A DNA stretch of 64,000 nt from an uncultured SAR86 cluster bacterium (lineage in GTDB: Bacteria > Pseudomonadota > Gammaproteobacteria > Magnimaribacterales > D2472): contig CACNRI010000001.1 of assembly GCA_902622845.1 (NCBI GenBank), positions 124,001 through 188,000 on the forward strand. The letters run 5' to 3'. The stretch's first letter is position 1; the number at the start of each line of letters is the position of its first letter. Below the pieces are notes generated by a model. That model was not told where the DNA came from. It did no database searches and saw only the letters and a program-made list of their open reading frames with translations. Positions 7,711 through 11,134 of this stretch are shown in pieces. The position numbers were made by a program, and so were the translations under genes.

Positions 7711-8127
7711 ATGAAAACTCTTCCTAAAACTTCAACGCATTTAAATGTGTGTGGGAGTAATTTCTTTAAATTAAGAAAATTGCTCCAAGACTTTAAAGGA
7801 CCTGGGAAAAGTTTTGAGAAGTCTGTCAGTAAAAATGAAAAAGTTTTAATAAAGTTTAATTTATTATCAAAAACTAAGCACACCCTAACTTATGAGGTGA
7901 AGCATATCCATCCTGAGGATAGCCTTAATGATTTTATAATCAGATTCTGTGTTTTTATTGACGCAAAAATGGTTGAAGTAATTTCTTTTCAGGGAGAGAA
8001 GCCTTTTCCTTTTTATATAAAAAATAAATCTGTTCTTCAGTCATCTGATGAGAAACATCAACAAAACACTTTCTTTTTTGACCTTCTTGAGAATTTACTT
8101 ACTTTTGCAGAAGAAATAATTGAATAA
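7711..8127 (+). CDS. DUF1249 (YqiB-like) family protein
   Basis: Size and composition; paired with a YqiA-like esterase gene downstream. Confidence 0.65.
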   Translation: MKTLPKTSTHLNVCGSNFFKLRKLLQDFKGPGKSFEKSVSKNEKVLIKFNLLSKTKHTLTYEVKHIHPEDSLNDFIIRFCVFIDAKMVEVISFQGEKPFPFYIKNKSVLQSSDEKHQQNTFFFDLLENLLTFAEEIIE

Positions 8128-8692
8128 AAATATATTTTATTTTCACGGCTTTGCATCATCTGCTAATTCAACGAAGGCAAAAGTCTTTGATGATTTTATA
8201 AAAAAGAAGTTCCCAAATGTTGATCTGCATATCCCAAATATTGATAACTCTATAGAAAAATCTTTTATTCAACTAGAAACTTTAGTAGAAGAGAATGCAG
8301 GTGATAAATTATTTATTGGAAGCTCACTTGGCGGTTTTTATGCATCTTATTTTGCAGAAAAGTCTGATTCAAAGGCTGTTTTGATCAACCCCGCATCAAA
8401 CCCATATTTGGGAATGAAAATGTATTTAGGAAAGAACACTAACTATTCAACAAATGAAGAGTTTTACTTTTCTAAAAAAGATCTTGAAATCTTGGAGCTG
8501 AATAATGTCTCAAAAATAAAATCTCCATCGAACTATTTAGTACTTATTGAAACTGGTGATGATGTTATTCCATTTAAGTACACTCTTGATTTCTATAAGG
8601 GTTGCAATTTTTGTATCGTTAATGGGGGAAGTCATTCTTTTGATTCTTTCAAAAAAAAGCTCGAAATAATCTCGAAATTTATGCAACTTTAA
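8120..8692 (+). CDS. YqiA/YcfP-like alpha/beta-fold esterase
   Basis: YFHGFASS...GSSLGGFYASYFAEK...VLINPA. Confidence 0.85.
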   Translation: MNKNIFYFHGFASSANSTKAKVFDDFIKKKFPNVDLHIPNIDNSIEKSFIQLETLVEENAGDKLFIGSSLGGFYASYFAEKSDSKAVLINPASNPYLGMKMYLGKNTNYSTNEEFYFSKKDLEILELNNVSKIKSPSNYLVLIETGDDVIPFKYTLDFYKGCNFCIVNGGSHSFDSFKKKLEIISKFMQL

Positions 8693-8760
8693 GAATTCTT
8701 GTAACAATACTGAAAATATTGCCCTTAATATTAATATGTCTATTGCTTAGTTATTTCATT

Positions 8761-8777
8761 TAAGTAAACTTTACTTA
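8761..8777. promoter_or_regulatory. Perfect inverted repeat TAAGTAAA-C-TTTACTTA upstream of the glnA leader; candidate operator
   Basis: Direct reading of the sequence: 8-bp perfect arms, 1-nt spacer. Confidence 0.4.
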
Positions 8778-8843
8778 GCATTTTAATTTGCACCATTTCC
8801 ATGGTTAAAAAGGAACTCAATTATTTGAGTGAAGAGTTAAAAT

Positions 8844-8891
8844 CGTTCAACTTCTTAGGAAGTCGGAAGTAGGTGAAAACCGAAGGAACGC
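8844..8891 (+). promoter_or_regulatory. glnA RNA motif / glutamine riboswitch aptamer, copy 1
   Basis: CGTTCAACTTCTTAGGAAGTCGGAAGTAGGTGAAAACCGAAGGAACGC: P1 CGTTC/GAACG, P2 ACTTC/GAAGT, P3 GGT-GAAA-ACC and conserved CGGAAGTA...GAAGGAACGC; upstream of glutamine synthetase. Confidence 0.92.
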
Positions 8892-8915
8892 GCCCGTTAA
8901 CAGGATAACGTTAAT

Positions 8916-8962
8916 CGTTCAACTCTTTTAGAGTCGGAAGTAAGCGAAAGCTGAAGGAACGC
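8916..8962 (+). promoter_or_regulatory. glnA RNA motif / glutamine riboswitch aptamer, copy 2
   Basis: CGTTCAACTCTTTTAGAGTCGGAAGTAAGCGAAAGCTGAAGGAACGC: same architecture with compensatory changes in P2 (ACTC/GAGT) and P3 (AGC-GAAA-GCT). Confidence 0.92.
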
Positions 8963-9044
8963 AACCGTTAAACCCGATCGAGTTTAACTTCAAAAATCCT
9001 GCAGACTAAAAAATGCATGAAAATTTATTTTTTAGGAGATATTT

Positions 9045-10016
9045 ATGAATACTTTTGAATATATATGGCTTGATGGGTATCAGCCAGAACCAATGATGCG
9101 AAGCAAAGTTAAAGCCACTGAGGACGATACTCCTCCAGATTGGTCTTTTGATGGATCTTCAACTCAGCAAGCTGAAGGTGGAAGTTCTGACTGCTTACTG
9201 TTACCGGTGCAAACCTATGCAAATCCTAATGGACATGATTTAGTTATGACTCAAGTTCAAGCTGCTGACCACTCTGTTCATCCGTCTAATACTAGAGCCG
9301 CAGCAGCAGAAGTAACTACAGATGAGTGGTGGTTTGGCTTTGAACAAGAATTCTTTTTTACTGATCCGCAAACTGGAGAACCTCTTGGTTGGGAAGATGG
9401 AACACCAAGAGAGCAAGGCGAATATTATTGTGGAGTCGGAGCAGGAAATGTTGTTGGAAGAGAGATCTCAGATGCGCATTTAGAAGCTTGTTTAGATCTT
9501 GGTATAACTCTGACTGGAACAAATGCAGAGGTTGCTCTTGGTCAATGGGAATATCAATGTTTTGGAAAAGGCATTAAAGCTGCTGATGATCTCTGGGTAT
9601 CAAGATATCTTCTTTATAAGATTGCTGAAGAGTATGGTGTTGGTGTAAATATTCATCCAAAACCTAAAACAGGAGATTGGAACGGCTCTGGAATGCATTG
9701 TAATTTCTCAAATGAAGCAATGAGAACGGCTGGTTCCGAAGAACTTTTCTCTTCAATGTGTGACAAGTTAGGCGAAGTACATGAAGAAGGTATTGCTTCT
9801 TATGGCTCGGATAATGATATGAGACTTACGGGTCTGCATGAAACACAAAGCATCGATAAGTTCTCTTATGGTGTCAGTGATCGTGGAGCAAGTATTAGAA
9901 TTCCGGTTTACACTGTTGAGCATGACTGGAATGGATACCTTGAAGACAGAAGACCAGCTTCTAATGCTGATCCTTATAAGATTTTAGCTCATATAGTAGG
10001 AACTCTTAGTAAATAA
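9045..10016 (+). CDS. Type II (eukaryote-like) glutamine synthetase
   Basis: WSFDGSSTQQAEGGSSDCLL, WWFGFEQEFFF, GQWEYQCF, NGSGMHCNFS; AGGAG RBS upstream. Confidence 0.96.
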   Translation: MNTFEYIWLDGYQPEPMMRSKVKATEDDTPPDWSFDGSSTQQAEGGSSDCLLLPVQTYANPNGHDLVMTQVQAADHSVHPSNTRAAAAEVTTDEWWFGFEQEFFFTDPQTGEPLGWEDGTPREQGEYYCGVGAGNVVGREISDAHLEACLDLGITLTGTNAEVALGQWEYQCFGKGIKAADDLWVSRYLLYKIAEEYGVGVNIHPKPKTGDWNGSGMHCNFSNEAMRTAGSEELFSSMCDKLGEVHEEGIASYGSDNDMRLTGLHETQSIDKFSYGVSDRGASIRIPVYTVEHDWNGYLEDRRPASNADPYKILAHIVGTLSK

Positions 10017-10030
10017 ATTTATCTCTTCTG

Positions 10031-10060
10031 AATATGCGGGAATTCTTTTCCCGCATATTT
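10031..10060 (+). terminator. Rho-independent terminator-like hairpin between convergent genes
   Basis: AATATGCGGGAATTCTTTTCCCGCATATTT followed by ATTTTT; A/T-flanked on both sides so may work bidirectionally. Confidence 0.75.
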
Positions 10061-10475
10061 ATTTTTGGACAACAGGGAGATTCTCTTGTGTCCAAGTCAT
10101 CATTCCCCCATTCAATCTAAATGTTTTTTCAAATTCGGCTTTTTTGAGCTTTTCTCCAATATTTGCTGAGTTTCGTCCCATATCACATACCAAGATTATT
10201 GGACGCTCCTTAAATTTATCAAGTTTATACATATGATTATCAAATTCTTGATGAGGATAACTTAATGCGGTCATTATGTGCCCATTTTCATAATCTTCTT
10301 TTTTTCTCAGATCTATAAGAATTGCATTTTCTTTGTTTACTAAACGCGTAAGTTCATTGGGCTCAATTTTCTTACCACCTTTATTCATTTCTGAATAAGC
10401 AAATAAGAATAAAAAGAAAAACAATGGCACTGAAAAATACCAGTAATCAATTAAAAAAAGATTAAATTCCAACAT
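10059..10475 (-). CDS. Rhodanese-like domain protein with N-terminal TM segment
   Basis: [23 protein letters not shown]...VCDMGRNS; hydrophobic N-terminus. Confidence 0.85.
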
Positions 10476-10519: not shown

Positions 10520-11134
10520 ATGAATCTAATTTTAATAAGGCATGGTCAAAGCGAGTGGAATGCCCTAAATCAATTTACTGGATGGAAAGATCCTGATCTT
10601 ACGGCCAAAGGTATTGAAGAGGCACATAATGCAGGCAGGATAATAAATAACTTAAAAATTAATTTTGACTTAGTTTTCACATCTGCATTAATAAGAGCTC
10701 AGAACACAGCTGAAATAATTCTCAAAGAAATAAATCAGCCTTTATCAACTATAAAAAATCAGGCTCTTAATGAAAGAAACTATGGAGACCTTGCAGGCCT
10801 TAATAAAGATGATGCAAGAAAAAGATGGGGTGATGAACAAGTTCATATTTGGAGAAGATCATATGATATACCTCCTCCTGGAGGAGAAAGTCTTAAAGAT
10901 ACAGGTGAAAGAGTGCTCCCATTTTTTATGAAAGAAATACTCCCATATGTTTGTGAAGGTAAGAACGTTTTAGTTGCAGCGCATGGAAACTCTCTTAGGT
11001 CATTAATAAAGTTTCTTGATAATATTTCGGACGAAGACATTGTTAAGTTAGAAATCCCAACTGGGGCGCCAATACATTATGTAATCAATGAGGATGGTTC
11101 AGTTAAGTCGAAACAAGACTTCTTCAATGAATAG
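10520..11134 (+). CDS. gpmA: 2,3-bisphosphoglycerate-dependent phosphoglycerate mutase
   Basis: [49 protein letters not shown]. Confidence 0.95.

Follow-up and report, generated by a model that had tools for sequence, protein, structure and literature searches.

The window, i.e. the whole 64,000-nucleotide stretch that was analysed, comes from an uncultured SAR86 bacterium of the D2472 family and contains a glutamine synthetase gene preceded by a leader with two glutamine riboswitch aptamers in tandem (Table 1). The type II assignment of the enzyme (GSII) in the sequence-only reading agrees with its Pfam domains, PF00120 (66.3 bits, cut-off 24) and PF03951 (34.8 versus 33.4 bits). NF041605 (GlnII) is by far the best NCBIfam model and is aligned over nearly its whole length, although the score of 358.7 bits lies below the cut-off of 500; the product is read as a putative divergent GlnII-like enzyme. 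PF00120 has a single match genome-wide, and GSII is the only glutamine synthetase found. A consensus promoter scan reported no + strand promoter around the tentative sigma-70 site, and inspection by eye found none of the sigma-54/NtrC-like promoter sequences that sister genera carry (see below) upstream of GSII.

Table 1. Features of the GSII locus, in window coordinates.
Feature	Position	Strand	Basis and remarks
UPF0227 (YqiA-like) gene, 5' synteny anchor	8120-8692	+	PF05728; same GSII neighbour in sister genera
Possible sigma-70 promoter TTGCTT-N16-TAAACT	8743-8770	+	Read from sequence; tentative
5' pseudoknot-like motif CCAT-TTCC-ATGG-TTAAAAA-GGAA	8793-8815	+	Pattern counts; covariation in relatives
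Small hairpin CTCA/TGAG, 3' of pseudoknot-like motif	8816-8829	+	Compensatory versions in relatives
Glutamine riboswitch aptamer 1 (RF01739)	8842-8894	+	Rfam cmscan, 70.7 bits, E 1e-13
Inter-aptamer hairpin CGTTA-ACAGGA-TAACG	8895-8910	+	Sequence
Glutamine riboswitch aptamer 2 (RF01739)	8914-8965	+	Rfam cmscan, 68.4 bits, E 4.6e-13
3' hairpin GTTAAAC/GTTTAAC, directly 3' of aptamer 2	8967-8988	+	Conservation; G-U changes keep pairing
Candidate switching strand TCCTGCAG	8997-9004	+	Complementary to CTGAAGGA (8951-8958, aptamer 2); its TCCT to Shine-Dalgarno
Shine-Dalgarno AGGAG	9034-9038	+	Sequence; 6 nt 5' of GSII ATG
Type II glutamine synthetase (GSII)	9045-10016	+	PF00120, PF03951; best NCBIfam model NF041605 GlnII
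Rhodanese-like gene	10059-10475	-	PF00581; marks ntrB-ntrC position of sister genera
Histidine-phosphatase family gene (gpmA-like), 3' synteny anchor	10520-11134	+	PF00300; similar gene after sister-genus ntrC

The two modules that had been reported at 8844-8962 and assigned to the glnA RNA motif are present at that place, and both score far above the RF01739 gathering score of 35 bits. Chance is excluded as the source of these matches. In the alignments both aptamers contain P1, P2 and P3 as well as the conserved CGGAAGTA and GAAGGAACG. Compensatory differences between the copies had also been described. The P3 stems, GGT-GAAA-ACC versus AGC-GAAA-GCT, are as given; the change in P2 is real, but the second stem (ACTCT/AGAGT, against ACTTC/GAAGT) is one pair longer than was written. 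Among 78 distinct aptamers taken from the retrieved loci, P2 and P3 are paired in 99% of cells, compared with 83% (P2) and 76% (P3) after shuffling strands between sequences, a contrast that is inflated by the relatedness of the sequences. The RF01739 scores together with this pairing make the aptamer identification firm. The Downstream-peptide motif (Glutamine-II, RF01704) shares the ligand, and its likeness is limited to the P1 part; it scores 14.6 and 14.2 bits at the two aptamers, below its cut-off of 33. The GSII leader carries conserved RF01739 aptamers in tandem, and to judge from their sequence these are expected to bind glutamine.

The aptamers are embedded in further conserved modules, which the sequence-only reading did not include. 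The 5' motif has the general form CCAT-(A)-YYCC-ATGG-N6-7-GGRR across leaders and is followed by the small hairpin, which is CCC/GGG, TCCT/AGGA or CCTT/AAGG in relatives. The inter-aptamer hairpin has similar counterparts in most GSII and torF leaders with two aptamers and is absent from TonB receptor leaders. Every leader of the genus that was found by aptamer alone has the 3' hairpin after its last aptamer; in the leader set collected by pattern scan its presence is partly by construction.

A pattern derived from the leader, run over the GTDB genomes, matched only records of the SAR86 cluster or of unnamed marine Gammaproteobacteria/Pseudomonadota, which bears out the gammaproteobacterial host proposed earlier. 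The D2472 ('Suzuki') family of SAR86 comprises ten genera, with TMED112 (CHAB-I-7) as sister family (PMC11582366), and this count agrees with the ten genera of the family sampled here. The sample comprised 107 genomes, 10 of them from the window's own genus (g1). RF01739 occurs in at least 50 of the 107, a lower bound because strict filters were used, including 10/10 of the window's genus, and in at least 4 of the 369 genomes sampled from the class, again a lower bound because fewer candidates were scored. The targets in the family are nitrogen uptake and assimilation genes, namely GSII (with one to two aptamers among relatives), a TonB receptor and torF-amtB; elsewhere they are torF-amtB, a type I glutamine synthetase (GSI), gltB and gltD. 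The window's genome itself has a second RF01739 pair, also missing from the earlier account, with the two copies one nucleotide apart before the TonB-dependent receptor gene. At the loci checked this receptor lies between a purine-type permease in divergent orientation and, where the retrieved stretch extends that far, a phosphoribosyltransferase, neighbours that suggest a role in purine scavenging. In other genomes of the genus torF-amtB is preceded by a third site, which has two or three aptamers, and glnK is found in that operon only in genome G008. Ammonium transporter genes were found in 5 of the 10 genomes of the genus and not in the window's genome. In genome G407, from another gammaproteobacterial family, glutamine aptamers precede gltB-like and gltD-like glutamate synthase genes (L125, L128), each followed by a ACCAAACT...AGTTTGGT hairpin.

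Textbooks present the feedback control of glutamine synthetase as a standard example of protein signalling. That RNA-level control might replace GlnB/NtrBC had been raised in the sequence-only reading, and gene content agrees: six-frame family searches of the window's own assembly (1.19 Mb, 91% complete) found no P-II, NtrC, GlnD or sigma-54. P-II is present in 95 of the 107 family genomes, yet in only one of the ten in the window's genus, G008. Sigma-54 and GlnD are both missing from 10/10 genomes of this genus, whereas each of the nine other genera has them. NtrC-type matches are strong in the other genera (E about 1e-44 to 1e-75); in the window's genus there are only weak ones near 1e-6, typical of other AAA proteins. 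These absences rest on six-frame searches of mostly incomplete genomes. Incompleteness would account for the scattered absences in other genera, but not for ten in a row in each of three separate genes. Fifteen extra leader-bearing genomes, the complete chromosome CP097968.1 among them, likewise gave P-II in 0/15 and a strong NtrC match in 0/15; these genomes were selected by the leader and therefore show the association, not its frequency. The single P-II gene of the genus, in G008, lies inside a riboswitch-led torF-glnK-amtB operon (L044), possibly an intermediate stage of P-II loss.

The same exchange can be followed at the GSII locus. Fifteen loci from the nine sister genera have the order GSII-ntrB-ntrC, preceded by an esterase gene and followed by gpmA where the retrieved stretch extends far enough, and one of them (L107) has a similar rhodanese gene between ntrC and gpmA. 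The sister-genus order is thus esterase-GSII-ntrB-ntrC-rhodanese-gpmA, against esterase-GSII-rhodanese-gpmA in the window. Upstream of GSII the sister genera have TGGCAY-N5-TTGCW and TGCAC...GTGCA, which resemble sigma-54 and NtrC sites (read by eye, not scored). Target gene, locus and presumed signal, nitrogen status, are the same, and control is by a protein cascade with a sigma-54-like promoter in the sister genera and by an RNA leader in the window. The simplest reading is that ntrBC was lost and the promoter region was replaced by the riboswitch leader. Gene loss and promoter replacement are seen directly in this comparison; riboswitch gain and protein loss may be causally tied.

In the GSII tree the riboswitch-bearing genes fall into two main groups and four label changes are needed, which is compatible with a single origin of the riboswitch, although we do not claim one origin over two. 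The GSII of G010, a genome assigned to the window's genus, belongs to the other tree group and lies near a contig end; it could reflect transfer or contamination. In G152, a member of another SAR86 family, the same riboswitch leader precedes GSI, with the same genes around it; the leader has therefore outlived the gene under its control. This persistence through a swap of GSII for GSI, and the compensatory changes that preserve the stems, argue against a leader that is a relic of no regulatory role before an effectively constitutive enzyme. In favour of such a relic are the streamlined genome and the number of aptamers on GSII, which varies between one and two among relatives, but we regard this explanation as very improbable.

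Since the genus lost P-II, GlnD, NtrBC and sigma-54 while a riboswitch fronts GSII, we consider it likely that the tandem glutamine riboswitch controls the sole glutamine synthetase, that RNA took over the nitrogen feedback from the lost proteins, and that glutamine represses translation. Our confidence applies mainly to the regulatory replacement and less to the translational step. In this model an ordinary promoter would probably drive GSII transcription. At low glutamine the aptamers would be unfolded, strands 3' of aptamer 2 could base-pair with aptamer segments, and the ribosome site would be open. At high glutamine the aptamers would fold, P1 and the downstream hairpin would form, and the released strand would cover the Shine-Dalgarno sequence, such that less enzyme is made. 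Two aptamers would be expected to give a steeper response.

Folding predictions bear on this model in part. In the unconstrained minimum-energy fold, TCCTGCAG is paired to CTGAAGGA of aptamer 2. Forcing P1 raised the predicted probability of the 3' hairpin in most leaders, and forced aptamer folding gave no consistent change in predicted Shine-Dalgarno accessibility across the leaders. Pairing between the strand 3' of the hairpin and the Shine-Dalgarno sequence is matched by lineage (e.g. GCUUCUAAA with UUUAGGAGC, CUUCUAUAG with CUAUAGGAG), with only 7 of 1000 permutations as good among 14 unique GSII leaders, a value inflated by relatedness and owed mainly to a set of mutually related lineages other than the window's. 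The window's own switching strand pairs with its Shine-Dalgarno over 5 bp, which is not significant (p 0.23). Taken together, the strand/Shine-Dalgarno pairing and the pairing of TCCTGCAG with the aptamer lead us to favour glutamine-dependent translational repression with moderate confidence; in this particular copy, Shine-Dalgarno sequestration may be the route.

The increase of the 3' hairpin upon forcing P1 would also fit a switch acting on transcription, through termination or Rho access, and some torF leaders of relatives do have AAGG-TTTGAC-CCTT hairpins followed by T runs 3' of the aptamer. We consider transcriptional control unlikely here, as a scan of 8600-9100 found no intrinsic terminator or terminator-like site and the window's 3' hairpin has no T run after it. 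Characterised glutamine riboswitches are ON switches (PMC6316151), and repression therefore needs a different platform. Activation of GSII in the cyanobacterial style also has a parallel in other SAR86 genera, where aptamers with a GCATCT...AGGAGATG ribosome-site hairpin precede DUF4278-like and other small genes. However, raising glutamine synthetase and amtB at high glutamine would be positive feedback, and the GSII/amtB leaders are laid out differently from the small-gene leaders; we regard activation as distinctly unlikely, and repression at the translational step as the better model for GSII.

The 5' motif covaries at YYCC/GGRR (TTCC/GGAA, CTCC/GGAG, CCCC/GGGG). Genomes with this leader type contain 0-3 copies, the reversed control pattern never matched, and all inspected copies sit just 5' of a glutamine aptamer. 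CCAT/ATGG is invariant within the matched pattern, and the pseudoknot is therefore a proposal. Since leaders L035, L038, L040 and L041 lack the motif, it is not needed everywhere. A search of Rfam with E up to 5 returned no family that matches it, and it may be an undescribed structured RNA. We give little credence to its being a second, undescribed ligand-sensing or regulatory RNA; if this were so and the motif read a carbon/nitrogen-starvation signal (e.g. 2-oxoglutarate), the leader would constitute a two-input, all-RNA substitute for P-II/NtrBC. The motif is doubled in leaders L124, L142, L144-L148 and L159, where two copies spaced by ~51 nt precede a single aptamer and torF-amtB. An upstream leader peptide overlapping the motif (ATG-GTT-AAA-AAG-GAG) was rejected, as relatives L006, L079 and L091 read ATG-GTT-TAA. 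A phage origin of the leader was also set aside: blastn gave no match in the phage collection, a result with which remote similarity is still compatible.

The aptamer class and its tandem copies are already known, as is its association with glutamine synthetase and ammonium transporters in marine metagenomes (PMC2864571, PMC9481103). Weinberg et al. (2010) described tandem copies of the glnA motif and its association with genes for glutamine synthetase, P-II, glutamate synthase and ammonium transporters (PMC2864571), and 157 doublets and 4 triplets of RF01739 have been counted (PMC9481103). The window's aptamers resemble this motif in sequence and structure, well above cut-off, in their tandem arrangement and in their position before nitrogen genes. 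They differ in that the host is non-cyanobacterial, heterotrophic and lacks the Ntr proteins, and in that the leader has extra conserved 5' and 3' modules and is probably repressing. The Synechocystis gifB riboswitch belongs to the same aptamer class and also targets glutamine synthetase activity, by way of the inactivating factor IF17 (PMC6316151); there an inhibitor gene is switched on, whereas here the aptamers lie directly before the enzyme gene. A 2018 review called glutamine riboswitches restricted to cyanobacteria (PMC6316151), and a comparative paper on SAR86 mentions neither riboswitches nor regulation (PMC11582366). None of the openly available papers searched reported glutamine riboswitches from SAR86 or their coincidence with Ntr loss, and as far as that literature shows the genomic context is new. 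SAR86 ranks among the most abundant groups of bacteria in the surface ocean. Here one syntenic locus can be compared between close relatives that have the protein cascade and others that lack it, which makes the idea of a trade of regulatory proteins for riboswitches in streamlined ocean bacteria directly testable.

Several further genes carry glutamine aptamers within SAR86. Small DUF4278-family genes follow them in other genera (L029, L031, L051, L054; one clear Pfam match and one below cut-off), and this domain also occurs in cyanobacterial IF17. Aptamer pairs precede a gene for a ~54 aa protein (L020, L021, L023-L025, L027, L030, L034, L046, L048, L049, L053) that mostly ends in FFPYYL and has no Pfam match; in most of these loci GCATCT...AGGAGATG surrounds the ribosome site. 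Single aptamers precede a 71-72 aa DUF4177-like protein (Pfam score 22.8, cut-off 25) in genus g4 (L026, L028, L050, L056, L063 and similar), and a circularly permuted ATP-grasp protein at L014-L016, L018, L019, L022, L032, L033 and L045, assigned by PF14403 for the L019 copy.
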